Shown here: piece by piece, positions 8,404 to 43,660 of the stretch
Position numbering within the stretch: position 1 is the first letter of the stretch
Layout of the letters: each line of letters opens with the position of its first letter
From: Thioploca sp.
GTDB lineage: Bacteria; Pseudomonadota; Gammaproteobacteria; Beggiatoales; Beggiatoaceae
Length of the DNA: 64,000 bases
Direction of reading: 5' to 3'
Assembly (NCBI GenBank): GCA_012032555.1
Contig: JAAUSR010000010.1
Span: forward strand, 1 to 64,000
Notes under the pieces: model-generated
The model's input: only the letters and a program-made list of their open reading frames with translations
Database searches by the model: none
Told to the model about the DNA's origin: nothing
Made by a program: the position numbers and the translations under genes

Positions 8404-8538
8404 CATGGTATCGCCGCCGAAGCGGTTTATAACGCTTTGCCGAACCACTATATATTCACTAAACGCGGCACCATTTCAGTCAAGGGGAAAGGTCAAATGA
8501 CGACTTATTTTTTGACCGGTAAGCAGAGAACTAATTAA
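8404..8538 (+). pseudogene. C-terminal stub of an adenylate/guanylate cyclase
   Basis: A plus-strand frame with no start reads 44 codons to a TAA. It contains YIFTKRGTISVKGKGQMTTY then FLTGK, the unmistakable end of a class III cyclase domain (RG...VKGKG.M.TYFL). An in-frame TAA at 8401 and the MITE end at 8377 lie immediately upstream, so everything before the last 44 codons is missing. It is not a piece of the cyclase at 21461-23704, whose end differs. Clear relic. Confidence 0.85.
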
Positions 8539-8596
8539 TACCTTGGTTTGCTGAAAAGTAAAAGGGGACCAATCAATCAGTTTGAGGTAACATACG

Positions 8597-10897
8597 ATGA
8601 CTAACACTTTATCAGAACACTCGTCAACCAGTACCAAGTTACACTTAGCCATTAAAGGAATGAGTTGTGCTTCCTGCGTTAACGCGGTTGAACAAGCCTT
8701 AACCCAAACCCCTGGCGTATTCACCGCGCAGGTCAATTTTGCTTCTTCAGAAGCTGAAGTAGTGTATCAACCCCAATTAGTCGACTTGGCTCGCCTACAA
8801 CAGGCGATACGGGATCGTGGTTACGATGCCGAGGAAATGGCTCTTTCCAGCTCTGGTATGGAACAAATCGACCATCAAGAACAGGAACAGCAACAAGCTT
8901 ATCGCCTTTTGCTACATAAATTCTGGTTCGCTGCCGCTATTTCAGTTATTGTCATGCTATTCAGCTATCCTCACCTACTGCCCTTCTTAAACGATTGGAT
9001 GCCACCGGGTAGTGTTAAACAACGTATCGTTTGGGGGATACTTGGCTTATTAACATTGCCGGTGATGATCTGGGCAGGTTCGCAATTTTATACGGGTGCC
9101 TGGTCCGCATTAAAACATCGTTCTGCTAATATGCATACCTTAATTGCAGTAGGTATCACAGCGGCTTATTTATATTCTGCCACCGCCGTGTTATTTCCAT
9201 ACTGGTTTCCAGAACAAGCCTTGGCAAAAGTGTTTTGGGAGGTGGTTACTTTTGTGGTAGCTATGGTGGTACTTGGTATGGCTTTAGAAGTTAAAGCTAG
9301 AGGTAAAACCTCAGCAGCTATTAAAAAACTGATTGGTTTACAAGCCAAAACCGCTCGGGTAATCCGTGATAATCAAGAACAGGACGTACCGGTAGCCGAA
9401 GTTCGAGTTGGTGATGTAGTACTGGTCCGTCCGGGTGAAAAAATTCCAGTCGATGGTGTCATTGTGACTGGAGAAAGTCATGTCGATGAATCAATGCTCA
9501 CCGGTGAATCGATGCCAGTTCCAAAACGAGCTGGTGATAAAGTAATCGGAGCAACTCTAAACGCAACCGGCAGTTTTCAATTTCGTGCCACCAAAGTAGG
9601 TGCAGACACCGCCCTATCTCATATTATTCGCATGGTACAAACTGCGCAAAGTTCTAAACCACCGATTCAACGCTTGGTAGACAAAGTTGCCAGCTATTTT
9701 GTACCAACCGTTATCATATTAGCCATGCTGGCATTTATCGTTTGGTATCTCGTTGGACCGGAACCACGAATTGTTTATGCCACCATTGTCTTCGTAACTA
9801 CACTCATTATTGCCTGTCCTTGTGCACTCGGCTTAGCAACGCCAACTTCCCTGACGGTGGGGATTGGTAAGGCGGCTGAACACGGCATTCTCATTCGTAA
9901 TGGTAACGCTTTACAAATAACGAAACAAATTAACACCATTATTTTAGATAAAACCGGTACCATTACTGCAGGTAAGCCGGCTGTCACTGACATCATCGCC
10001 GCACCTGATTATGACGAATCAACCGTACTTCGATTAGCAGCTAGCCTAGAACGACATTCTGAACATCCGTTGGGAACAGCCATTGTCACCGCAGCCCAAC
10101 AGCGGCAATTGTCATTGATCGATGCCAATCACTTTCAAGCCATTCCCGGTCAGGGTGTTCAAGGTCAAGTGGAAACCAATCAGATCTTACTCGGTCATAG
10201 CGGCTTTATGTTACAACAAGGCATTGAGGTAAATGAATTGGCTCAACTAGAAATACAGCTAGCTCAAGCCGGTAAAACGCCAATCTATGTGGTAAGCAAT
10301 GGTAAGATAGCCGGGATTATAGCGGTAGCTGATCCCATTAAATCCGATTCCAAATTGGCTATTGCGGCTCTGCAACGCATGGGATTGGAAGTGATTATGC
10401 TCACTGGTGATAAACAACTGACTGCTAAGGCGATTGCCAAACAAGTGGGGGTAAATGAGGTATTGGCAGAAATCTTACCTCAAGATAAAGCGCATGAAGT
10501 ACAAAAACGACAACAAGCCGGCAAAATAGTAGCGATGGTGGGTGATGGAATTAATGATGCACCGGCATTAGCTCAAGCAGATGTAGGAATGGCTATTGGT
10601 ACCGGAACCGATATAGCTATTGAAACCAGTGATATTACCCTTATCAAAGGTAATCTCACCGGGGTAGCGACTGCTATAGCGATTAGCCGTGCCACTTTAC
10701 GTAATGTCAAACAAAATCTCTTGGGTGCCTTTATCTATAATAGCCTGGGAATTCCAATTGCAATGGGGGTTTTATATCCCTTAGTTGGTATTTTACTTTC
10801 TCCACTGATTGCTGCTGTAGCAATGGCTTTTAGCTCGGTCACGGTGGTTACTAATGCCAATCGATTACGTTACTTTCAGCCGTCACTAAAAAGTTAA
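8597..10897 (+). CDS. copA: Copper-exporting P1B-type ATPase
   Basis: 766 residues. N-terminal heavy-metal domain with GMSCASC (Cys24, Cys27), then membrane helices. The metal-binding CPC of helix 6 is at 407-409 and the phosphorylation site DKTGT at Asp451. The nucleotide-binding HP (SEHPLGTAI) and [10 protein letters not shown] at about 649 follow. The CPC motif and a single HMA domain indicate Cu(I) export from the cytoplasm. GAGG lies 9 bases before the ATG. No CueR-type dyad was found upstream, so copper control is unproven. The upstream 60 bases follow a cyclase relic, so the promoter must be short. No copper chaperone gene is adjacent. Confidence 0.96.
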
Positions 10898-12330: not shown

Positions 12331-12911
12331 GTGCGCCACGATAGGTAATTGATAATCTGGTGAAATTCCAGCTAGGTACTTGGCACAATTATAGTGAATC
12401 CTAGTCCCTAATGTCCAGACCTTACACGTTCCTAGACGAATGTAAGTGTATAGCGGACTGACTTAGACGGAAGCTGAGATAAGGAGACTCTGTTACAAAT
12501 CAGCATACCGTAGGGAAAATACTTAGAAATGATGAACGCAAGTGAACCTGTGGCTGAAGCCTCAAAACCTACACAGAGTCAAAGATGATAATAAACGTTT
12601 CTGTCCCAAAACGTGAAACCAAGTAAATCATCTGGGGTACAGCAGGCATCTAAAACTAAGGTAAAAAGTATCAATTAGTGAATCGTGGGACTGGGTAACG
12701 AGTGGTTACAAGGAAAGTAACAATATAGGAAATTAAGCCGTTATCCCGCAGAGGCGTAATAGTACCGATAGGAATCAAAGCCTTATCAATCGCAGATAGA
12801 AACGGATTGATTACGAAAGTAAGCGGGAAGTACGCTAGGGTGTTCCGATTAATCATGAGGTATTGGACGGTAAATTTATTGTAAGTTTTATAATGCCAGT
12901 CAAGCACTGAG

Positions 12912-14443
12912 ATGAAATTTACAAGTCAACTGTTAAGAAAAGCAGAAAGACACGTATATCGTTTGCAAAGAAGTGGTTATGAGGCATTAAGGAAAGGTAA
13001 TTTAAGAAAGTGGAATAAGATACAAAAACTGTTACTTAGAAGCTATTATGCTAGGGTTCTAGCCCGGTATAAAGTGACTAAGGTAAATCAAGGAAGGAAA
13101 ACAAAAGGCATTGATGGGAAAAGGATTAATCCAAAGTCAACTAGACAAATGAGATTAAACCTTAGAAAGATAAAGAAAATCGTAACAGGAAAGGAAAAAT
13201 GGGTTCATCTACCTATCAAACGAGTAGAAATTCCAAAACCGGACGGGAAAAAAAGACCGTTAGGTATCCCGACACAATTTGATAGAGTTATGCAAGCAAT
13301 GGTAAACAATATCTTATTTGTGGTACAGGAATTTCAGATTGCGAACAACGGAATAAAATCTTTTGGATTCAGAAAAGGTTTTAAAACGGCAGATGCAATA
13401 GTAACTTTAAAAACATACGTTTGGAAAGGTAAAAATGCTAGAGTAATAGAAGCGGACATTGAACAATGTTTCGATAAGATTAATCATGCCAAAATTCTTG
13501 AAATACTAAAAAATTACAACTGTATAGAAAGAATTACGGAAAGGGTTAAGGGTGTTTAAAAGCACAAATCTTATACGGGGGTGTATTGACAGACTCGACA
13601 GAAGGAACGTCGCAAGGTGGTATTTTAAGCCCCACGATAGCTAATATCGTTTTAAGAGAAACCTTGGATAAAAAATTTGAGGTAGGTCTTAGGAAAATAA
13701 AAGCTAAAAGAGGATGCCGACTAATAACATAGGCTGATGATTTGATTATCATGCAACAAGGAATAGGCAAACCAGAAAATCTACCAAAAATCCTAGAAAT
13801 GACCAGTAATATGATTAAAGACATTGGTTTAAATCTAAAAACTGAAAAGACTAGGATTAGAGAAGATGATACACCCTTTGAATTCTTAGGCTATGAGATA
13901 CAAAGGGGTAAAGGGATAAGACTAAATCCCAAAATAATCAAACGAGCAAGGCAAAAATGCCAAAAGAGCATAAGCTATGGTAGAAGGCAAAACCGGGTTT
14001 TGAAAGAAATAAACCCAATCCTAAGAGGTGTATACAATTACGCGGGTTATTTTAGCAATGGAAAAATGTGGAATCAATTAGGAAAAATGAGATTTAAGAT
14101 AGCCAAAAGATTCCATAAGGTGTGTAAAGAATACGGTGAAAACAAGATAGTTAGCTACAAGGAGGTAAATAAAACAGTTAACTACATACCACCACAAGAA
14201 CCCACAATATGGCAAAATCCGCAATACTGGAATGCTAGAAATCTAAAAGGACTTAAACCAAGAAAGAAGCTCCTTTGGAAAAGGCAAAAAGGTATTTGTG
14301 AACCTTGTAGAAGTAGATTCGGTTATGATTCATCAATGCTACAAATACACCACCTAAAAGAAAAGTCTAAAGGTGGCAGAGACAAAAACAGTAATGTTGT
14401 TTTAATCCATAAAGAGTGCCATGAGACACTCCACAATCTTTAA
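12912..14443 (+). pseudogene. ltrA: Group II intron reverse transcriptase/maturase with HNH domain, broken
   Basis: The N-terminal frame (12912-13559) contains RT motifs KPDGKKRPLGIPTQFDRVMQ and EADIEQCFDKINH. After a frameshift at about 13550-13556 the next frame has GTSQGGILSP and then the active-site box, where the codon before ADD is TAG (13730-13732): the YADD tyrosine has become an amber stop. The rest (13742-14443) holds the thumb/maturase region. It ends with an HNH nuclease (CEPCRSRFG, HHLKEKSKGG, HKECH) of the kind that cuts the second DNA strand in retrohoming. Reconstructed length is about 510 residues. Two lesions make it a true pseudogene. Confidence 0.92.
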
Positions 14444-14536
14444 AGGAGGTACCTCATGAATGGAAAAATGAAACCTCTTAAATTACCTGAACTCAATGAG
14501 TCATTGGGTCAAGGAGCCTAGACAAAACACTGTGAA

Positions 14537-14569
14537 AGCCGTGTGAAGCGAAAGTTTCCCGCACGGTTT
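14537..14569 (+). ncRNA. Group II intron domain V
   Basis: Hairpin AGCCGTG/GCACGGTTT with the internal TGAAGCGAAAG loop, the catalytic core element of group II introns. It sits about 95 bases after the maturase stop. Domain VI follows with its 3' side ending at 14619. Confidence 0.85.
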
Positions 14570-14619
14570 GGGGTGGGGGGTGCGTGAAATCATTAGAGGA
14601 AGCGTATCTCTATCACCAT

Positions 14620-14694
14620 GAGGCACGAAACCCAACATTCATGGGTCAATGATGTTCCCAAATGTTGGGCTTCCTTACGTCAGCCCAACCTACG
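14620..14694. repeat. Right half of a dispersed hairpin (3' exon) plus tandem arms
   Basis: Begins GAGGCACGAAACCCAACA, the partner arm of 12311-12330. It continues with CCCAAATGTTGGGCTTCC and two copies of CGTCAGCCCAACCTAC to about 14708. It ends inside the truncated kinase frame described next, so the repeat cluster probably cut that gene. Confidence 0.75.
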
Positions 14695-14850
14695 TCAGCC
14701 CAACCTACCGGCTTCAGGGGTGGGATAATCCGATTTTAGAAGCTTAAGAATAACCGGTGCATTATCAGTTTGACGGTGGGCGCGGTAGACGGTGGTATGG
14801 GTGCCGATGTAAAGCGGTTCTATTAATTGGTAGTGAGAAAGTGTGAGCAA
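14695..14850 (-). pseudogene. N-terminal stub of a serine/threonine kinase
   Basis: A TTG start at 14850 with GAGGAGGG five bases upstream opens a frame reading LLTLSHYQLIEPLYIGTHTT, then VYRAHRQTDNAPVILKLLK and SDYPTPE. This is the start of the kinase domain of the very large kinase/ATPase/histidine-kinase proteins common in cyanobacteria and Beggiatoa (glycine loop, then the VILK lysine). After 47 codons the frame runs into a GTAGGTTGGGCTGACG repeat and stops at a TGA. The native gene would exceed 1500 codons, so this is a 5' remnant. Confidence 0.8.
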
Positions 14851-15066
14851 ATTATCCCTCCTCATTTATTGTTTCCGCGTTAAGAAATAATTTTAGTTAT
14901 TTTACTCATTTTATTTTACAAATAAAATAGGATTGCTAAATGTTAAAATAACCGCCATCTCGCTACCGACTAAGCGATAATCAAATAGTTAATCAACCTA
15001 AAAAAACTAATCGTAACGCCATAAGATGCTCTGATATAAATAACTACCTAATTTGCGGAAATGAGG

Positions 15067-15444
15067 CTAACTTTCAGAACGTTGTCGAATGTATTCCTTA
15101 ACCTTCTGGATAACAAAATGACTAATTTGCGGATTGATTTGTTTACTGGATTTCACAAATTTAGGCATCACTTCCTCATAAGAAAAAGTGCCATCTTTGA
15201 CAAAGACCGGCGTCATGTTTTTATGGGGGGAAGCTTCACCATCATCAATTCGGTGATGCCCAAATCCACGTTGACAATCCCAAGAAATAACACGTTCTTT
15301 TCCTAACCGATCATAACAGAGTTGAAAACTCGTTAGTTGGCCATTTTCATTTTCCCAGGTGAATAAATCAAAATAATCATCTTGGAACCAGCGTTTTTTA
15401 GTATGGATTTCTTTCTCTTGGTTTAAATACAACTCTGTTAACAT
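15067..15444 (-). CDS. Conserved hypothetical protein, 125 residues
   Basis: Soluble, charged protein with no signal peptide or membrane segment. It contains WENENGQLTSFQLCYDRLGK and SWDCQRGFGHHRIDDGE, with a HH-x-I-DDGE stretch that could bind metal, and ends in a basic helix. I do not recognise a functional family. It is convergent with nothing and lies 55 bases downstream of panC on the same strand, so co-transcription is possible. Codon use matches its neighbours, so it is probably a real gene. Confidence 0.7.
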   Translation of the reverse strand: MLTELYLNQEKEIHTKKRWFQDDYFDLFTWENENGQLTSFQLCYDRLGKERVISWDCQRGFGHHRIDDGEASPHKNMTPVFVKDGTFSYEEVMPKFVKSSKQINPQISHFVIQKVKEYIRQRSES

Positions 15445-15498
15445 ATTGTGACCGTTAAATCAGTTTACATTTGACATTCATTATTATAGTTTTTTTAT

Positions 15499-16350
15499 TT
15501 ATAAGTCACAAAAAATATTATCAATTAAACGGGCTGGACCGAGCCAAGCGGCTGCTAAAATAATTAACTTTTTATCTTGGGGGGTTGGTATAGTTAGATC
15601 GTGACGACATCGAACACTAACATAGTCTGGATTAAAACCCAGTTGCTTAAGACTTTCAATAGCTTCACTTTCTAGTCTAGTGAATTCTCGCTGACTAGCC
15701 GCTATTTTTGTTTTCATCTCGTTAAGAATTTGAAATAAATAAGGCGCCACAACACGTTGTGCCGGATTCAAATAATGATTACGGGAACTCATCGCTAAAC
15801 CATCTGGTTCGCGCACTATTGGAACACCGATAATCTGAATCGGTATAAACAAATCGGCTGCCATGCGTTTAATGATTAATAATTGTTGATAATCTTTTTC
15901 ACCAAATAATGCTTTATCTGGTTGAATCAAATTAAACAAGATATTAACTACGGTAGCGACTCCCTTGAAAAAAACTGGGCGCGAAGCACCACAGAGTATT
16001 TCACTGAGCTTGGGAACCTGAATACTCGTAGTAGATTCCATTCCACTGGGATAAATAGTCGTAACCATCGGATTAAATAATAAATGAACACCCAGTTGCG
16101 CTAATTTTTCACTATCTTCAGCTAAAGTTCGAGGATAGGTTTGGTAATCTTCAGTTGCGCCAAATTGTAAAGGATTAACGAAAATACTAACGACAACTCG
16201 ATCAGCAATGGCCAAGGCCTGTTGCACTAAAGTGAAATGCCCATCATGGAGATTTCCCATGGTAGGAACCAAAGCAATACATTGTTTATTATTACGCCAT
16301 TCATTGATTTGTGTACGTAATTCGGTAATTGGAGTCACTATTTTCATCAT
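15499..16350 (-). CDS. panC: Pantothenate synthetase
   Basis: 283 residues, the usual length. It joins pantoate and beta-alanine with ATP to make pantothenate (vitamin B5, for coenzyme A), in the cytoplasm. Visible motifs: VPTMGNLHDGHFTLVQQA (HIGH-type ATP site), SIFVNPLQFG, LFGEKDYQQL, and MSSRNHYL (the KMSKS-equivalent). All active-site blocks are intact. The start chosen is the first of two ATGs (MMK). panB and panD, often adjacent, are not in the window. Confidence 0.96.
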   Translation of the reverse strand: MMKIVTPITELRTQINEWRNNKQCIALVPTMGNLHDGHFTLVQQALAIADRVVVSIFVNPLQFGATEDYQTYPRTLAEDSEKLAQLGVHLLFNPMVTTIYPSGMESTTSIQVPKLSEILCGASRPVFFKGVATVVNILFNLIQPDKALFGEKDYQQLLIIKRMAADLFIPIQIIGVPIVREPDGLAMSSRNHYLNPAQRVVAPYLFQILNEMKTKIAASQREFTRLESEAIESLKQLGFNPDYVSVRCRHDLTIPTPQDKKLIILAAAWLGPARLIDNIFCDL

Positions 16351-25912: not shown

Positions 25913-27019
25913 TTAACTGGGCAAAGTAAAATAAAAGAGACAACCTTGGCCTTCACTACTTTCTAGCCCAACTTGCCCGCCTAGTTTTTCGATGACTTGT
26001 CGGACAATAGATAATCCTAAACCATGTCCTTCTGTACTCCCGGTATGTACCCGTGTAAAAGGTGTAAATAATTTAGCTTGTGCTTCTGAAGTTAATCCTG
26101 GCCCATTGTCTCGTACCCAAAAACAGATCAAGCCTGGATCGATCTCATGGGTACCTAATTCTAACTGCGGTGGTTTACCACCATATTTCATCCCATTACT
26201 AATATAATTAGTCCACACTTCTTCGATCCAAGGTGCATAACCTTGAACAATCGGCCAAGAATCAGGTAAAATAATATTGGTTTGATATTGTTTGATCATA
26301 TAAGATAAGCGTTGTAAAACTTGTTGGATAATGAGGTTCATATCAATCGGTTGAGTTTCTACATCCCCTTGCTTAGCAACACCAGCGAGTAACAGTAATG
26401 AATCAATAATTCCCACCATTTTATGACTAGCTTGCTCAACTAGACTTAAAATTTCTATCATCTCTTCATCCGGAAGCGTGTTGGTTGAACATTCACTCAC
26501 TAACATTTCAGTATAGCCAATAATCGCATTCAACGGGTTTTTTAGATCATGAGCCACAGTGCGAGCAAAAGCATCCAATTCCATATTACGCTTTTCTAAT
26601 TCTAAGGTGCGTGATTCTAATTGTTTCTTTAAATTAAAAAAATTTAACTGGGTAGTAATTCGAGCTAAAACTTCTTCATGCTGAATCGGTTTGGTAATAT
26701 AATCAGCGGCTCCGAGTTGGAAACCTTTGACTTTATTAACCGTATCGGTTAGTGCAGTCATGAAAATAATCGGAATATCTCGGGTTTCGGCATCCGCTTT
26801 AAGAATCTCACAGGTTTCAAACCCATCTATTCCAGGCATCATAATATCTAATAGAATTAACGCCGGTTTAGCATATTTCGCTTTTTGAATGGCTCGATTA
26901 CCTTCTTGAGCAACTAATACTTTAAAGCCTTTTTCACTTAAGAAGTTGAACAATATACTTATATTAGCCGGTGTATCATCTACAATGAGTAAGGTACCCT
27001 TATCTTTTTCAACAGTCAT
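25913..27019 (-). CDS. Response regulator-histidine kinase hybrid
   Basis: 368 residues. The N-terminal receiver has acidic pair Asp14-Asp15, phosphorylation site Asp58 in LLDIMMPGIDG, and conserved Lys110 in ADYITKP. A coiled coil (about 128-150) is followed by HisKA with the phospho-acceptor His157 (VAHDLKNPLNAIIGY) and a HATPase with DNGPGL and GHGLGLSIV. It has no membrane segment, so it is a cytoplasmic relay that takes phosphate or signals from another kinase. Its ATG (27017-27019) directly follows a run of TAACTGA heptamers, so repeat number could affect its expression. Confidence 0.92.
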   Translation of the reverse strand: MTVEKDKGTLLIVDDTPANISILFNFLSEKGFKVLVAQEGNRAIQKAKYAKPALILLDIMMPGIDGFETCEILKADAETRDIPIIFMTALTDTVNKVKGFQLGAADYITKPIQHEEVLARITTQLNFFNLKKQLESRTLELEKRNMELDAFARTVAHDLKNPLNAIIGYTEMLVSECSTNTLPDEEMIEILSLVEQASHKMVGIIDSLLLLAGVAKQGDVETQPIDMNLIIQQVLQRLSYMIKQYQTNIILPDSWPIVQGYAPWIEEVWTNYISNGMKYGGKPPQLELGTHEIDPGLICFWVRDNGPGLTSEAQAKLFTPFTRVHTGSTEGHGLGLSIVRQVIEKLGGQVGLESSEGQGCLFYFTLPS

Positions 27020-27020
27020 T

Positions 27021-27076
27021 TATCAGTTATCAGTTATCAGTTATCAGTTATCAGTTATCAGTTATCAGTTATCAAT
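27021..27076 (-). repeat. Tandem heptanucleotide repeat (TAACTGA family)
   Basis: Seven perfect 7-bp units (TATCAGT on the plus strand, TAACTGA on the minus strand) and an eighth with one change. They begin one base upstream of the kinase ATG at 27019 and therefore include its ribosome-binding region. TAACTGA direct repeats are, from memory, a described hallmark of marine Beggiatoaceae intergenic regions. Role here is not known. Confidence 0.95.
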
Positions 27077-27170
27077 AGAATCATGATAACTGACAACCGA
27101 TAATTGATCATAGGAAAAAGGTCTATTCCACTGTATTACGCTCACCTTTCGTTAGCGTGAAGCGACCAGA

Positions 27171-27515
27171 TTAGTAACCGCCTTTACGTTTACTTTCCGG
27201 TAACCCAGCGACTTTACTACCCTGTTTATCGGGATTGCCGGGAAACAATTCGTAAAGAGATTTAGCTTCCAACTTTTTATCATTCCACTTGGTTTGCATT
27301 GCTTTGACAATATTGCGCATGTTGGGCTGATTACCTGCATTGTTAAGATATTCATCCCGGAGGTAGTTAATCAGATCCCAATGGGGTTGCGTCAATTCTT
27401 CAATACCTTCTTGCTTAGCAATGGCTTTGGCCACTTCGTCATCCCAATCATCAACATTAATTAAATAGCCATTCGCATTACTTTCAATTGTCTTACCATT
27501 GACTTCGTAGGACAT
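27171..27515 (-). CDS. DsrC/TusE-family protein lacking all cysteines
   Basis: 114 residues, the full DsrC fold: YEVNGKTIESNANGYLINVD, DWDDEVAKAIAKQEGIEEL, HWDLINYLRDEYL and SLYELFPGNPDKQGSKVAGLP. True DsrC carries sulfur on two cysteines, one in KQACKIAGLP and one next to last. Here the first is Ser (KQGSKVAG) and the C-terminus is SKRKGGY with no Cys anywhere. It thus cannot be a persulfide carrier; a regulatory role, as proposed for Cys-less DsrC paralogs, is the best guess. AAGGAG is well placed before the ATG. It stands alone, not in a dsr operon. Confidence 0.9.
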   Translation of the reverse strand: MSYEVNGKTIESNANGYLINVDDWDDEVAKAIAKQEGIEELTQPHWDLINYLRDEYLNNAGNQPNMRNIVKAMQTKWNDKKLEAKSLYELFPGNPDKQGSKVAGLPESKRKGGY

Positions 27516-33184: not shown

Positions 33185-34252
33185 ATGCACGAACACGATC
33201 ACAGCTACAAATTGCTTTTTTCCCATGCCGCCATGGTGGAAGATTTGCTCCGTGGCTTTATACCCGAAGTGTGGGTCAAGGAACTGGATTTTACTACGTT
33301 GGAAAAAGTCAACAGCAGCTTTGTTAGCGATGATTTACGGGAACGCGAAGACGATCTGATTTGGCGGGTCCGTTGGCGCCACGAGGAGTGGTTGTATGTT
33401 TATATTCTCTTAGAGTTTCAATCGACCGTCGACTCGTTTATGGCCGTGCGAATTATGACTTACTTAGGATTGTTATACCAAGATTTAATTAAATATCAAC
33501 AATTAACCGCACGAGATTCCCTACCACCGGTTTTGCCATTAGTTCTATACAATGGTCAACCACGCTGGCATGCGGCTAAAAATATTCGAGACTTAATTCC
33601 AGTCATGCCACCGGGTTTAGAAAAATATTGCCCGCAATTGGAATATTTAGTCTTAGATGAAGGTGCTTTTAGTGATCGCGAGTTAGCACCGTTACGCAAT
33701 TTGGTAGCGGCACTGTTTCGTTTAGAACAAAGTCGGACAGTTACTGATATTCAACGAGTTTTAATCCATTTAATCGAGTGGTTACAAACACCTGAACAAG
33801 CTGGCTTACGTCGAGATTTCACGGTGTGGTTGCGACGAGTCATCTTACCAAAACGGTGGCCACAAGTGATATTCCCAGAAATTCAGGAATTACAGGAGAT
33901 GCACACAATGTTAGCTGAAACGGTACAACAATGGTATGCCGAAGCCGAAGAACAAGGAATGCAACATGGATTTCAACGGGGCATTCAACAAGGTCTTCAA
34001 CAAGGCATTCAACAAGGTCTTCAACAAGGCATTCAACAAGGCATTCAACAAGGCATTCAACAAGGTAAACAAGCCGGTCAGTTAGAAGGAGAACGGCTGT
34101 TGTTTAAGTTTCAATTACAGGCTAAATTTGGGCTACTTTCACTGCAAATCGAAAAACAACTTGATGCACTTGATGCAGAAATGCTATTCCATTGCGCCAA
34201 ACGGTTGTTGACCGCCACGACTATCGAGGAAGTTTTTACCGATTCGCCTTAA
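33185..34252 (+). CDS. Rpn/YhgA-family recombination-promoting nuclease
   Basis: 355 residues. The N-terminal DUF4351/Rpn nuclease domain has HDHSYKLLFSH at the start. The PD-(D/E)xK-type core follows: EDDLIWRVRW (metal Asp) and YVYILLEFQSTVD (Glu-x-Gln). PLVLYNG and the helical half come next. From about residue 265 a low-complexity (GIQQ/GLQQ) coil of 4-residue units is encoded by seven 12-bp DNA repeats. Rpn proteins are Mg-dependent DNases thought to promote RecA-independent recombination, often with variable C-terminal repeats. The gene lies between a NACHT relic and a TIR relic. Confidence 0.9.
   Translation: MHEHDHSYKLLFSHAAMVEDLLRGFIPEVWVKELDFTTLEKVNSSFVSDDLREREDDLIWRVRWRHEEWLYVYILLEFQSTVDSFMAVRIMTYLGLLYQDLIKYQQLTARDSLPPVLPLVLYNGQPRWHAAKNIRDLIPVMPPGLEKYCPQLEYLVLDEGAFSDRELAPLRNLVAALFRLEQSRTVTDIQRVLIHLIEWLQTPEQAGLRRDFTVWLRRVILPKRWPQVIFPEIQELQEMHTMLAETVQQWYAEAEEQGMQHGFQRGIQQGLQQGIQQGLQQGIQQGIQQGIQQGKQAGQLEGERLLFKFQLQAKFGLLSLQIEKQLDALDAEMLFHCAKRLLTATTIEEVFTDSP
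33980..34063 (+). repeat. In-frame 12-bp tandem repeats in the Rpn gene
   Basis: Seven units of GGCATTCAACAA or GGTCTTCAACAA, encoding GIQQ or GLQQ. Units are nearly identical in DNA, so copy number can change by slippage without breaking the frame. Confidence 0.95.
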
Positions 34253-37522: not shown

Positions 37523-40500
37523 TTATGGGATTGAAATATCAAATGTTTTTGGAGAATAAATAACTTGACCGGTCTTTAAGCGGTAGCCCCCAAAAATACG
37601 AAATTGTCCTAATGAGAAGTTAGGTAATTTGGCTTGCCAAAGTTTTAATTCATGCTGATCTTGAAGAGTAAGGGTTTGAACACTTGCCAAAGTAGCCAAA
37701 TCACCATCCCATTCTACCCAAGTATTTCCGTTGAGCATATATGTGATCGTTTGACCCGTATCAGCCACCCAAAGCGCTACACTGAATAAGTCAGCTAATT
37801 GCCCTCGGTGGGTTTGATCCGGTATGATTTGCAATCTGACGGTGATTTCGTCAGCAGAACGAAGATTTGAAGAATCAATTGGTTGATGAGTCACATCAAA
37901 TAACTCACCTCGAACAGTTACATCAACTACGTTTAATATATCGATAGTAAACGTTTTTTCTAATACTTGCTGAGTATCGGCTTGTGTACCTCGTACCACG
38001 AGGGAATAAGCAACTTGGTTCTCAAAATCCAATTCATCAGTTTTGGCAATCACAATTAAATCATTCATCAGGGTAAAACGACCCTGGGCATCTTCGATTA
38101 ATTCGTATTGGTAATGTGTTTGTTCATTACCTTTATTCCAAAGTCGACCAACAATAAAACCGTTGGGACTGTTTTCAAACACAGCGGTTTTAGTCAATTG
38201 AATGTCTTGTAATTGGCTCTGAATATCAGTAACCTCAATCGTAAAACTTTTGTCTACATAGGCACCGGTCATATCAACACTTCTTACTTGAATAGGGTAA
38301 GTTACACCATTGGCATAATTAAAATGAAAATGGTTAACTCGCAATTCGTTACCCACTATGGTGAAGTAGTTGCCAGGATTGTCTACTAATCCATAAGTAA
38401 ATTGATCTTGTTGATCGAAATCGGTAGTTGCTAACCAACCAATGATGGTATTAGGTGGACTATCTTCCATAACTGTATGATTAGATAAATAAATATCTGT
38501 GGGGGGACGATTGGAACGAATATCGAGCGTAATCACTTGACCGGCAATATTTTCACCCTGGTTAAGTTGATAGCTCAGCGTAATCTTAAGCAAGCCGGCT
38601 AAACCAATTAAGCGACCCTCATATAAATTGAATTGCATATCAGCTTGTAAAGGAATCTGGTGTGCAATCGTCACCGGAACATGCAATGCTGGTTGATCGG
38701 CTTGGATGGGTATCCAATTATAGTTTGCTATAATATCAGCAATTTGCCCAATGTGTGTCATTTGTGGTTTGAGATAGACAATGAATTTAACTCCTTCCGG
38801 CGCATCTATCGTCACATCTTTACCTACCTGCCAATCAGCGGTAATAACTTTTCCTAAAAAGGGGGATTCGTCTATATCATTAATATCAATAGTAAAAGTC
38901 TTATCAATGAAAGCACCTTGGCTATTGGTACTGCGTACCAGAATGGTATAACTGGGTGTGGTTTCAAAATCCAATTGAGCGTATTCAGCTAAATGTAATT
39001 CATCACTTCGGAGGATAAAGATGTGGCTCGCATCATCCAATAAAGTGTACTGATACGTTTCGTTTATATCCGAATCTAGAGTGGTCAATCTGCCAATAAA
39101 AGTACCACCTAAGCTGTTTTCGTCAAGGCGTTGATTGGATAAAGTTATATCCGTTGGCGGATGATTAATCGTGGGGGAGTGGTTACAATCCAGAGGATTA
39201 TCTACTAAACATGGCTCTTGATCCTTTGAGTCCGAAGTATTGTTGTCTTTAGGCACATCAGCTACTTTTTTAAAATGCGCTATACAATACCAATTCGTAT
39301 TAAGTATGAATTCAAGAGAATCATGGGTACTTTGACAATCACCTTCCCAAGCAAGAAATTGCGAACCTTGAGCAGCTGTAGCAACTAAAACCACTGAGGT
39401 TGGTTCCTTAAAGTCATGTGTACAAATCGCTTTACGGCTATCACATGCCATCTCTATCGCATCTGTGTTAAGTTGAACTTGACCCTCGCCGACAAATGAT
39501 ATTTCTAAATTGATTGGCGCTGATGAATCAGTTGATGTACAAGGTAAAGTCGTTATCGTTCGGGTAAGTACCTCTGAATCACTAGTCGCATTGGTTGCTA
39601 TTACTTGGTAATGATAATGGGTACCACAAGTTAAATCTTTATCTTGATAATGGGTGACATTAGCTAAAGTAATATAGATTACTGTCCCATCACGTTTAAT
39701 CTTAAATCCCGTTTCATTGTCACTATTGTCTACCCAACTGAGATTAACTGCGGTTGGTGAAGTCGCAATGAGCTTTAAATCACTTGGAACGAGTGGTGTC
39801 GTTGGTGTCGTGGCGCAACTTGGTGTAGTGACACTCGCGGTGAGAGCGGCTGAATCACCTGAAGCATTGGTAGCTTTAATAGTATAGTTATAAGTAGTAT
39901 TACAAGTTAATTCAGTGTCTTTATAGGTTGTTATATTAGCGGCGGTGATATGGATCAAAATACCATTGCGTTCAATTTTAAACCCGGTTTCACTATGACT
40001 CGTATCATGCCAATTAAGGATAACTTCAGTTATTGAATCAGCAACGATATTTAATTCATTTGGAGTCAGCGGTGGTTGAAGAATGGGTGGCTGAGTTGTG
40101 GTGTCATCAATAACGGGTATTTGTGGATCAGGATCAACTACAATTGGTGGAGAAGTTGGACAATCCCAAGTACTAACCATGATAGTTGCCGCTGATGATT
40201 CCCCGACGGTATTAATTGCTGTAACTGAATAAGTATAGTTGGTACCACAACTTAAATTACTGTCTTGATAAGTAATAGTATCAGCGGCTGTCGTTAACAG
40301 TAGTTCACCATCACGCGCAATTTTAAATCCCGTTTCATTGTCACTATTATCGTCCCAAGATAATTCCATAGTTTGTGTTGTTGCAATCGGTACCGCTTTT
40401 AAATTGGTTGGTGGTAAAGGTATCGTTGGGGTGACCGGTTGATTAACTGTTTGAAAACTGAACTTATAATCTCCAGATAAGTTATTCGGTGGATCAATAT

Positions 40501-43500
40501 TATCCACATCACTGATTTGATTAGCTATTATTGTTACCTGACACGAAGTATCAAAAGGTAGATTGCTAGTCGGTGTGAGCGTAAATATCGTTGCCGGAGA
40601 ATCAGACAAGTTAAAAGGAACGACAGTACCGACAGGACATTCAAGCGAGAAAGAACTAACCGTAGCATTAACACTTTCACTCAAGTTAATCGTTACCACC
40701 GCCATTGGATCAATTCCGGTGGTACTACTGGTCGGATCAGTGCTAACCACCGCCGGAGCAATATCCGGCTGCGGAACTACACCGGGATCTTTTTCAACAG
40801 CACCGATATCACAAATAACAGAGCCATCATTATTACCATCAATTGGTCGAGGTTTGCCTTGTTGATCGGTTGCCAAACAAGTTGAATTGTCACCGGCGTC
40901 AATAGCGGGTGAGCCATCTAATAAAGCAAAAGTACCATTAGGTTGTAAACCAATCAGTTGAGGATCACCGGTTTTCAAATTGGTGGCATTAATAGTGTTA
41001 CAAGTACCATCTTCGATTAGATTATTAAGATTGGGATTAATGGTACCAGTATTAGTGCAATCGCCTCCATTCTGACCACTATTAGCAAGTATAGTATTAG
41101 TGAGTTCTAATGTTCCGGCATTACGAATATTACTACCTTGAGTTTGCTGCGCAGTGGAATTAGCTGAGAAAGTGCTGTTATTAATTTTGGCACTCGTTTC
41201 ATTATAAAGACCACCACCGCCCCGGTTAGCTTTATTATTCGCAACGGTGCTGTTAGTTAGTGTTAATTGACCGCTATTGAAAATCCCACCGCCATAATCA
41301 TTTCCATTTGAAGTATTACTATCAATTAAACACCGATTAATTTTAACTACCGCACCGGTATCAATAAACAGACCCCCGCCTCGATGAGAATTGCCGGTCG
41401 TTTGGTTGTTATAAATCGTACAATCATTAAAAAATAAGGTGGCGCCACTATTGACATGAACAGCACCACCATCCGTTGATTTGCCATCGCTGAGCGTGAG
41501 GTGATTTATAGTGACATTGCCGCTGTCAATTTGGAAAAGCTGATTATTATTCCCGCCACTGAGAGTTATATTTTGTCCGGCACCATCAATAATTAGATCT
41601 TTATTAATAACTAAGGGGCCATTTTTTTTATCAATAGTAATCGTTTGACTGGCAAGAGAATTTGCGAAAGTAATCATATCTCCTGATAGTGCATGGGTAA
41701 TGGCTTCACGTAAGGTATTCTGACCGGCGCTTACATTTCCATCATCTTTATCACCAGCATTATCTACTACGATGTTGTTAACAATTTTGATCGTCACCGT
41801 TGCTGTTGTTGACTCCTTAGAATCAAATAAAGCGTTATCCTTGACTTTATAAGTGAACGTAGCTGTTCCGGTTTGATTTGCCGGTGGCGTGTAAGTAAAA
41901 GCACCGGTAGTTGGATCGGTTAAAGTCACCATACCTAGGCTACTATTGTTGACAATGCTATAAGTTAGACTATCACCATCCGAATCGGTTGCGGATAAAG
42001 TATTGCTGAGATTACTATTAATAATCGTTATAAAGCTCGCATCGTTGGCAACCGGAGCATGATTGAATTCAAAGGCGCCAATATCACATAAGGTACCACG
42101 AGTTTGACCGCGCTGATCCGTGCCTAAGCAGGTATCGCCGGCATCAATTGCTGGTGAACCCGCTAATAAAGCGTAGGTTTCGGTAACACCACCATTATTT
42201 TGTAAGGGCCCAAGTTGGGGATCACCAGAAAATGCCGGTGTACAAGTATCATCTTCAATTAAATTATTAGTATTAGTCGTTATTGAGCCAACAGCATTTT
42301 CGCAATCTCCACCACCACCCATGCTATTAGCAATGATAGTGTTACTCAATTGCAAAATACCCTCATTGTAGAGACCACCACCTTGTGGAGCAGAGTTACC
42401 AACAAAGGTACTATTTTTAATAGTTAAAGTTTGGCCAGAATTATTAAATAAACCACCACCATGTCCAGTCGATTCATTATTGGAAAAGGTACTATTATTA
42501 ACTTCTAATATTCCGGAAAAATTACGAATCGCTCCCCCATCACCACCATTAGCTTTATTTTGAGAGAAAGTACTATTGTTAATAACCACTAAATTGCCAC
42601 CTTGGTTATAGATACCACCACCGGTGAGGGTAGCAACATTTTTAGAAAAAGTACTCTCATTAATTTCTACGTTTCCTAATTCAATATAGATACCGCCTCC
42701 CAGATTACCCGTATTTTCAGAAAGAGTACTGTTATTAATAGTGGCTTTACCCTTGTTATAAAGACCGCCTCCTCCTAAGGAACCGGTATCAACATTAAGA
42801 GAAAGATTACTATTGTTAATATACAAAACACCCTCATTATAGAGACCACCACCTTGTGGAGCAGAGTTACCCTTCAAGATACTATTATTAATAGTGAAAA
42901 TTTGGCCAGGATTATTAAATAGACCACCGCCATGTCCAGTCGATTCATTATTAACAAAGTTGCTATTATTAACTTCTAATGTTCCGGCAAAATTACGAAT
43001 CGCCCCCCCATCACCATTAGTCAGTGCCTTATTTTGAGAGAAAGTACTATTGTTAACGACCACTAAGTTGCCACTTCGGTTATAAATAGCACCACCAGTG
43101 AAAGTAGCAACATTATTGGAAAAAGTACTATTATTAATTTCGACACTTCCTGATTCAACATGGATACCACCGCCATGACCACCCGTATTCCCAGAAAAAG
43201 TGCTATTGTTAACTGTTGCTTTACCTTTGTTATAAAGACCTCCTCCTCCCCAAGGACCGGTATCAGCATTAAGAGAAAAAGTAATATTGTTTAATACTAA
43301 TATGCCATTATTTTGAATACCACCCCCATACGATCCACTACCTTGAGTAATAGTTACATCATTTATGGTGACATTAAAATTATTCATAATCAAGAAGATA
43401 CGGGAATTATCTTGTCCGCTAATAATAATAGTATGTCCAGAACCATCAATAGTAATATTTTGACTGATAGTTAATTCACTACTTAGATTGATAGTGTAAT

Positions 43501-43660
43501 TATTATCAAACTGAATAATATCGCCATCACTAGCATTAGTAATGGCATTACGTAAAGAATCTGGTCCACTATCAGCATTGTTTTTCACGACAGCGGCAAA
43601 GGCAATTTGATTAGTCAGCTCAATGATGAAAATCAGAAGTGATAATATGATTTTATTCAT
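37523..43660 (-). CDS. Giant secreted adhesin-like protein, 2045 residues
   Basis: Signal peptide at 1-22 (ending IAFAA). Residues 25-500 are a right-handed beta-helix of about 20-residue repeats (NNSTFSGN, GGGLYN), closed by a choice-of-anchor Q motif (GSPAIDAGDTC...CDIGAFEF, about 500-530). An Ig/cadherin-like tandem-95-type domain is at about 534-625. A second beta-helix (631-900) ends with another GSPAIDAGD motif. A Big_5-type domain is at about 975-1075, followed by three fibronectin III domains (1085-1375). An InlB-like repeat (WEGDC) is at about 1390-1463. Three cadherin-like repeats (ENSLGG, DSPPNT, ENSPNG) are between 1507 and 1917. No barrel, LPxTG or type IX anchor is visible, so export route and anchoring are unknown. 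Its role is probably attachment or sheath. Confidence 0.88.
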   Translation of the reverse strand: MNKIILSLLIFIIELTNQIAFAAVVKNNADSGPDSLRNAITNASDGDIIQFDNNYTINLSSELTISQNITIDGSGHTIIISGQDNSRIFLIMNNFNVTINDVTITQGSGSYGGGIQNNGILVLNNITFSLNADTGPWGGGGLYNKGKATVNNSTFSGNTGGHGGGIHVESGSVEINNSTFSNNVATFTGGAIYNRSGNLVVVNNSTFSQNKALTNGDGGAIRNFAGTLEVNNSNFVNNESTGHGGGLFNNPGQIFTINNSILKGNSAPQGGGLYNEGVLYINNSNLSLNVDTGSLGGGGLYNKGKATINNSTLSENTGNLGGGIYIELGNVEINESTFSKNVATLTGGGIYNQGGNLVVINNSTFSQNKANGGDGGAIRNFSGILEVNNSTFSNNESTGHGGGLFNNSGQTLTIKNSTFVGNSAPQGGGLYNEGILQLSNTIIANSMGGGGDCENAVGSITTNTNNLIEDDTCTPAFSGDPQLGPLQNNGGVTETYALLAGSPAIDAGDTCLGTDQRGQTRGTLCDIGAFEFNHAPVANDASFITIINSNLSNTLSATDSDGDSLTYSIVNNSSLGMVTLTDPTTGAFTYTPPANQTGTATFTYKVKDNALFDSKESTTATVTIKIVNNIVVDNAGDKDDGNVSAGQNTLREAITHALSGDMITFANSLASQTITIDKKNGPLVINKDLIIDGAGQNITLSGGNNNQLFQIDSGNVTINHLTLSDGKSTDGGAVHVNSGATLFFNDCTIYNNQTTGNSHRGGGLFIDTGAVVKINRCLIDSNTSNGNDYGGGIFNSGQLTLTNSTVANNKANRGGGGLYNETSAKINNSTFSANSTAQQTQGSNIRNAGTLELTNTILANSGQNGGDCTNTGTINPNLNNLIEDGTCNTINATNLKTGDPQLIGLQPNGTFALLDGSPAIDAGDNSTCLATDQQGKPRPIDGNNDGSVICDIGAVEKDPGVVPQPDIAPAVVSTDPTSSTTGIDPMAVVTINLSESVNATVSSFSLECPVGTVVPFNLSDSPATIFTLTPTSNLPFDTSCQVTIIANQISDVDNIDPPNNLSGDYKFSFQTVNQPVTPTIPLPPTNLKAVPIATTQTMELSWDDNSDNETGFKIARDGELLLTTAADTITYQDSNLSCGTNYTYSVTAINTVGESSAATIMVSTWDCPTSPPIVVDPDPQIPVIDDTTTQPPILQPPLTPNELNIVADSITEVILNWHDTSHSETGFKIERNGILIHITAANITTYKDTELTCNTTYNYTIKATNASGDSAALTASVTTPSCATTPTTPLVPSDLKLIATSPTAVNLSWVDNSDNETGFKIKRDGTVIYITLANVTHYQDKDLTCGTHYHYQVIATNATSDSEVLTRTITTLPCTSTDSSAPINLEISFVGEGQVQLNTDAIEMACDSRKAICTHDFKEPTSVVLVATAAQGSQFLAWEGDCQSTHDSLEFILNTNWYCIAHFKKVADVPKDNNTSDSKDQEPCLVDNPLDCNHSPTINHPPTDITLSNQRLDENSLGGTFIGRLTTLDSDINETYQYTLLDDASHIFILRSDELHLAEYAQLDFETTPSYTILVRSTNSQGAFIDKTFTIDINDIDESPFLGKVITADWQVGKDVTIDAPEGVKFIVYLKPQMTHIGQIADIIANYNWIPIQADQPALHVPVTIAHQIPLQADMQFNLYEGRLIGLAGLLKITLSYQLNQGENIAGQVITLDIRSNRPPTDIYLSNHTVMEDSPPNTIIGWLATTDFDQQDQFTYGLVDNPGNYFTIVGNELRVNHFHFNYANGVTYPIQVRSVDMTGAYVDKSFTIEVTDIQSQLQDIQLTKTAVFENSPNGFIVGRLWNKGNEQTHYQYELIEDAQGRFTLMNDLIVIAKTDELDFENQVAYSLVVRGTQADTQQVLEKTFTIDILNVVDVTVRGELFDVTHQPIDSSNLRSADEITVRLQIIPDQTHRGQLADLFSVALWVADTGQTITYMLNGNTWVEWDGDLATLASVQTLTLQDQHELKLWQAKLPNFSLGQFRIFGGYRLKTGQVIYSPKTFDISIP

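Follow-up and report, generated by a model that had tools for sequence, protein, structure and literature searches.

Heptanucleotide tandem repeats of the STRR class in heterocystous cyanobacteria resemble the array described here in repeat length and intergenic position, and are set apart, by their general description, by units that differ from TAACTGA. The closest described system is that of the TAACTGA repeats in leaders of Beggiatoaceae genes. The available text of MacGregor 2015 (PMC4679880) describes these as mostly forward and upstream of the start codon, with the largest single group of arrays stopping 1 nt short of it and most lacking a ribosome-binding site, proposes translational regulation by the repeats, and suggests participation of S1 at such leaders. 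The heptamer is also reported in a Thiomargarita genome paper (PMC4853749). The TAACTGA class and the translation idea were already published in 2015, and no title among the matches listed from later open-access literature suggested a tested function of the repeats. In the hmwA promoters of Haemophilus influenzae, as far as the available text goes (PMC2424069), the number of 7-bp repeats correlates with mRNA level; the likeness lies in tandem heptamers upstream of a gene with number correlated with expression, whereas those repeats sit in a promoter at one gene pair and the present ones occur in many leaders. SD-independent initiation at A-rich upstream sequence in Escherichia coli (PMC7043885, available text) is compatible with the array leaders, sharing starts chosen without mRNA-rRNA pairing, but involves no repeats.

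The array studied here is a member of the published Beggiatoaceae class, sharing with the MacGregor repeats the heptamer, the forward orientation, a pre-start site mostly without a Shine-Dalgarno (SD) motif, and the lineage (PMC4679880, available text). It holds seven units, against two to six in the main genome of that paper and longer arrays in other phyla, and leaders of S1 and L3 carry arrays in both studies. The repeats alone were not predicted to fold there, in the text available, whereas here an upstream inverted arm gives a predicted hairpin. New beyond the 2015 work are the inverted arm, a sister-species comparison and a wider survey of rpsA leaders. The features of the locus lie within the window, the whole 64,000-nucleotide stretch of DNA that was analysed, and are as follows.

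25913-27019, minus strand: kinase gene, 368 aa, with response-regulator receiver, HisKA and HATPase_c domains (domain matches).
27017-27019, minus strand: ATG start codon of the kinase gene, at the same position in the sister species G040 (comparison with G040).
27020-27022, minus strand: TAA, the first bases of an eighth unit, abutting the ATG (sequence reading).
27023-27071, minus strand: seven TAACTGA units, all perfect (sequence reading, Tandem Repeats Finder, shuffles).
27072-27076, minus strand: ATTGA, degenerate end of the preceding unit (sequence reading; Tandem Repeats Finder array).
27084-27107, plus strand: inverted arm, reading TGATAACTGACAACCGATAATTGA on the plus strand, a degenerate heptamer copy (sequence reading, RNA fold).
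27020-27170, minus strand: complete intergenic region of 151 bases separating the kinase gene from the dsrC-like gene (RNA fold).
27171-27515, minus strand: DsrC-like gene (PF04358), upstream and on the same strand as the kinase gene (domain match).

Read along the minus strand, the leader runs ...CTATTGA, (TAACTGA)x7, TAA, then ATGACTGTTGAA..., and Tandem Repeats Finder reports an array at 27016-27074 with period 7, 8.4 copies and 98% match. The double unit gives 6 overlapping matches in the window against 0 expected from 100 shuffles, and the array is the window's sole run of two or more units. The seven-unit run ahead of a hybrid kinase gene, as proposed in the original prediction, was confirmed by sequence reading, Tandem Repeats Finder and shuffles, with one correction: the gap to the start codon, given as one base, is three bases (TAA) that themselves continue the repeat. 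The array is intergenic and forward, stopping a few nt short of the start codon, and the interval to the ATG consists of TAA alone, without an SD 4-mer. The start call looks sound, since the alignments of several kinase homologues begin at their first residues and the G040 protein is 93% identical, with coding identity beginning at the same ATG. The best named relatives are Thiomargarita, Parabeggiatoa and Thiotrichaceae records, placing the gene in a host related to Beggiatoaceae. No terminator or promoter was found inside the leader.

Across the genome of the window (G000), the double unit has 108 overlapping matches and the triple unit 37, grouped into 21 sites, against 2 and 0 for the reversed pattern used as control. 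Regions around 100 of the 108 double-unit matches, together with the triple-unit sites, contain at least 61 arrays; the mapped set comprises 61 merged arrays on 550,783 bases with 403 called genes. These stretches were picked around arrays and are a non-random genome sample, and gene calls come from a simple script based on codon scores, which overlooks small genes. Placement statistics use 57 arrays, the four arrays without a gene ahead being left out. Mapping the runs against start codons, suggested with the original prediction as a check, placed 34/57 arrays in forward orientation at most 50 nt ahead of a start, against a mean of 4.6 and a maximum of 12 in 2000 random intergenic placements; within 20 nt there were 24/57 (null 2.0, maximum 8). 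The excess was weaker for arrays pointing toward a start at any distance (45/57; null 32.5, maximum 46). Among arrays pointing away from a start the nearest lies at 64 nt, and since reverse arrays are open frames, the gene caller may absorb some.

The leaders also differ in composition, with 43% A at positions -30 to -1 against 35% in other genes. SD-like 4-mers precede 6/34 array genes and 124/356 others (Fisher p = 0.055), a trend only. The claim that repeats replace the ribosome-binding site is supported as to position and forward near-start excess, and the SD deficit stays at that trend. In the fold model, start regions are no more open at array genes than elsewhere, the mean unpaired probability being 0.41 for array genes (n = 23) and 0.45 for others (n = 292; p = 0.22). 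Besides the S1 gene (rpsA model match), array genes assigned by Pfam families include those for L3, IF-2, tRNA synthetases of the Tyr/Trp and Met types, DnaG, PurA and SucC. Because arrays precede such genes, those for S1, L3, IF-2, the two tRNA synthetases and DnaG being usually essential, an on/off switch by copy number is unlikely there.

The best explanation combines three parts: an array of the published class, an initiation region without SD pairing, and a unit number that sets kinase translation through the inverted arm. Taken jointly, these have about an even chance of being correct. In the mRNA the array would form an AU-rich translation initiation region independent of SD pairing; the units alone are predicted to be unstructured. 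The array shows no pairing with 16S rRNA that would offer a known docking mode. A 16S rRNA gene was not found in the G000 assembly, and the G040 16S, with an intact CACCTCCTT, was used instead, giving a pairing energy with the array of -12.1 kcal/mol against -12.0 for shuffled heptamers, and -3.4 against -5.6 with the 16S 3' tail. As no pairing exceeds chance despite an intact anti-SD, direct rRNA pairing is unlikely. If translation does start from the arrays, many genes make use of a tandem repeat as a leader element.

A neutral or selfish heptamer, expanded by replication slippage in leaders where harm is least and without any role in expression, is possible but rather unlikely. Its patchy spread fits this reading, with three or more units in 17/42 family genomes, two of which have more than 300 overlapping matches, and in 2/185 sampled genomes of the class, the own genome included. 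So does the absence of a visible functional theme in the near-start set of 34 genes; of the 33 that were scanned, 5 had no family at E 1e-12. Forward units moreover hold stops in all frames and therefore cannot spread inside genes. Against it, random placement does not give 34/57 forward arrays within 50 nt, although reverse arrays are possibly hidden from the gene caller. The near-start bias was not confirmed in the genus of G028, where a called start lies within 60 nt of only 3/18 arrays, with genes called using the codon table of the own genome. In G001, arrays of at least 14 units occur near contig ends (C88, C243), so long arrays may cause breaks in assemblies and be undercounted there.

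The sister species G040 bears on the same question. The search covered 40 of the 61 arrays, those oriented toward a start no more than 150 nt away (40 of 92 candidates scored), and a G040 DNA match, taken as the ortholog, was found for at least 39 of the 40 array genes; 33 of 39 pairs, in which no more than 60 nt separate the array from the start, were kept for the near-start comparison. Within 150 nt, 9 of the 33 G040 leaders hold a run of at least two units, 18 hold one unit and 6 none, so that an exact unit occurs in 27/33, and a unit with at most one mismatch lies within 60 nt in 30/33. As a control, 338 non-array genes of the own genome have between them 11 exact forward units in their upstream 120 nt. 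The mean longest run is 2.7 units in the own genome, which was selected for arrays, against 1.15 in G040. These counts rest on the sequences rather than on alignments, some of which (L140, L142) are misplaced. Unit variants in the sister leaders include TAACGGA, CAACTGA and TCACTGA.

At the kinase gene, the G040 leader reads TAACTGA-TAACGAA-TAA-ATG, one exact unit and one degenerate. Because G040 keeps units at the same ATG, the common ancestor probably had units at the kinase start, their number changing later with the gene intact. Such drift in unit number between sister species is what a neutral heptamer would show, while the retention of units near the same ATG argues against neutrality. 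More broadly, ancestral leaders would have held heptamer units that lengthened or shortened in place. Whole-unit stepping between sister leaders was rejected, as length differences showed no enrichment for multiples of 7, with 5/25 anchored leaders (two of the five being zero) and 2/20 among non-zero differences of up to 60 nt; sister leaders gain and lose other bases too. Further up in the G040 kinase leader (L163), two GC-rich copies of about 24 nt lie among heptamer units, the first being predicted to fold on itself.

The rpsA leaders place the repeats in a phylogenetic frame. A match to rpsA was found in 37/42 family genomes, and 31 leaders were read and six were not; the S1 tree leaves out G000 and G036, which lack a full protein. 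The tree resolves a 12-genome clade with support 100/97, with the own genus as its sister at 98/91. A native rpsA leader element is GGGGTTTGGA, and in outgroup genomes the GGGG element is often seen as TCAGGGGTTTGGA-ATG. GGGG within 25 nt of the rpsA start occurs in 0/12 clade genomes against 12/17 outgroup genomes. Conversely, a unit within one mismatch lies within 60 nt of the start in 12/12 clade genomes against 4/17, and TAACTGAT abuts the rpsA ATG in 5/12 against 0/17. An exact unit is absent in 4/12 clade genomes, and G029 has two units further up with a different element at the ATG. Both genomes of the own genus carry units together with GGGG, the array standing 21-22 nt from the ATG and the native element being retained. 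The available text of MacGregor 2015 (PMC4679880) lists arrays at S1 in three species and for Thioploca ingrica gives two copies located 21 nt upstream; the G040 leader agrees with this, having 2 units at a distance of 21 nt from its start codon.

Most simply, these sequences suggest that heptamer units started out alongside the native element and replaced it later. In part of the family, units would thus have displaced a native G-rich element even ahead of the S1 gene, and a neutral heptamer does not readily account for units accompanying the missing G-rich element in the clade. That an essential protein gene tolerates the swap argues, without amounting to proof, that such leaders can initiate translation. 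The 2015 paper, in its available text, left the replacement of ribosome-binding sites open, and the rpsA comparison sets that question in its phylogenetic context, with one clade lacking the G-rich element ahead of an essential ribosomal protein gene where heptamer units are present.

Initiation at the kinase gene itself would further depend on the inverted arm, which in the leader RNA is complementary to about three to three and a half array units with 3 differences. Folding of 27170-26990 gave z = -4.6, with a predicted arm-array stem of about 20 pairs. The arm is predicted to be able to pair with any three units, so that unit number would shift the position of the hairpin, surplus units acting as decoys. 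The predicted unpaired probability of the start region was 0.41 with 0 units and 0.21, 0.10, 0.12, 0.35, 0.53, 0.71, 0.75 and 0.78 with 1 to 8 units in silico. At two to three units the arm would bury the start codon, and at six or more the start would be mostly free, so that unit number would set kinase translation. In silico deletion of 27075-27110, which holds the arm, raised the values to 0.74, 0.86 and 0.82 at 1, 3 and 7 units. The G040 kinase start, with a different layout, was modelled at 0.69 unpaired. This arm-and-decoy model is the new, testable part, a prediction for an assumed leader extent; if it holds for the kinase, unit number would be a simple, testable control of a sensor. 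That unit number is a heritable dial, slippage between about three and six units flipping the leader from closed to open, is an improbable extension of the fold model.

Of the 61 arrays, 25 have an inverted 9-mer in the 150 nt upstream and 5 a direct copy; among near-start arrays the inverted 9-mer is seen at 12/34. In a like-for-like comparison of leaders with free upstream sequence, inverted 9-mers occur in 5/18 array leaders against 8/185 others. Array leaders also fold better than controls, z falling below -2 in 13/33 against 15/186. The 12 arm-bearing near-start leaders have a mean predicted unpaired probability of 0.28 at 2 units, 0.50 at 12 and 0.34 at their actual numbers. The steep curve of the kinase leader is unusual, the other arm leaders showing weaker or no effect, with L140 the next clearest. 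In the 22/34 near-start leaders without an arm, mean predicted exposure is nearly flat over unit number (0.42-0.49), as a neutral heptamer would have it. Arms occur at 0/18 arrays in G028, 1/3 in G001, 1/1 in G008, 0/1 in G007 and 0/1 in G020, and on these counts and the 12/34 in the own genome the arm was rejected as a general feature. The proposal that copy number alters translation finds partial support at the kinase leader, where unit number is predicted to change start exposure and differs between the sister species; the essential genes, the flat arm-less leaders and the lack of sevens speak against a general switch.

A role at the DNA level, with the array spacing promoter elements or binding a transcription factor as the 7-bp hmwA repeats do, has only a small chance of being right. 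The hmwA correlation with mRNA level is a precedent (PMC2424069, available text), and for 11/45 start-pointing arrays the distance to the start exceeds 60 nt. However, 24/57 arrays stop no more than 20 nt short of the start codon, where promoters seldom lie, and some stand between same-strand neighbours, for example ahead of the L3 gene. Four sigma-70-like matches around the kinase leader are at chance level (2.9 expected), and 0 of the 4 fall inside it.

An all-frame stop insulator is very unlikely. Each unit carries TAA and TGA, two units stop every frame, and terminating ribosomes may restart; TAACTGA is among only 4/60 cyclic letter orders with two stops per unit, and the last stop of the kinase leader (TAA) touches the ATG. 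The sister variants TAACGGA, CAACTGA and TCACTGA nevertheless each lose one stop, and the dsrC-like gene already stops 151 nt before the kinase start, so no further stop is needed there. A mobile-element or excision footprint, in which the arm would be the other half of an inverted repeat, fits the 25/61 inverted against 5/61 direct 9-mers and the GC-rich inserts in the sister kinase leader, but is highly improbable given the lack of an inverted copy at 36/61 arrays and at all 18 in the G028 stretches.

Several further observations were made. On L062, a single frame at 8476-9648 (minus strand) matches a fatty acid desaturase (10-212) followed by an ISL3 transposase (270-386) and has a five-unit TAACTGA leader. 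Before the IF-2 gene on L074, a GTTAACA-series repeat precedes the TAACTGA array, upstream of 12502-12536 (minus strand), and this leader has the strongest fold among 33 (z -11.0). On contig C94 of G000, S1 is matched as two overlapping pieces, 13961-14257 and 14212-15513 (L210, L208), indicating a frameshift or an assembly error. Elsewhere in the window, a perfect 15-bp repeat of 2.2 copies lies at 14676-14708, a 12/24-bp tandem repeat (AACAAGGCATTC) at 33951-34066 within the open reading frame 33185-34252 (plus strand), and a 474-bp tandem duplication with 84% matches at 42353-43296 within a 2045-aa open reading frame at 37523-43660 (minus strand).
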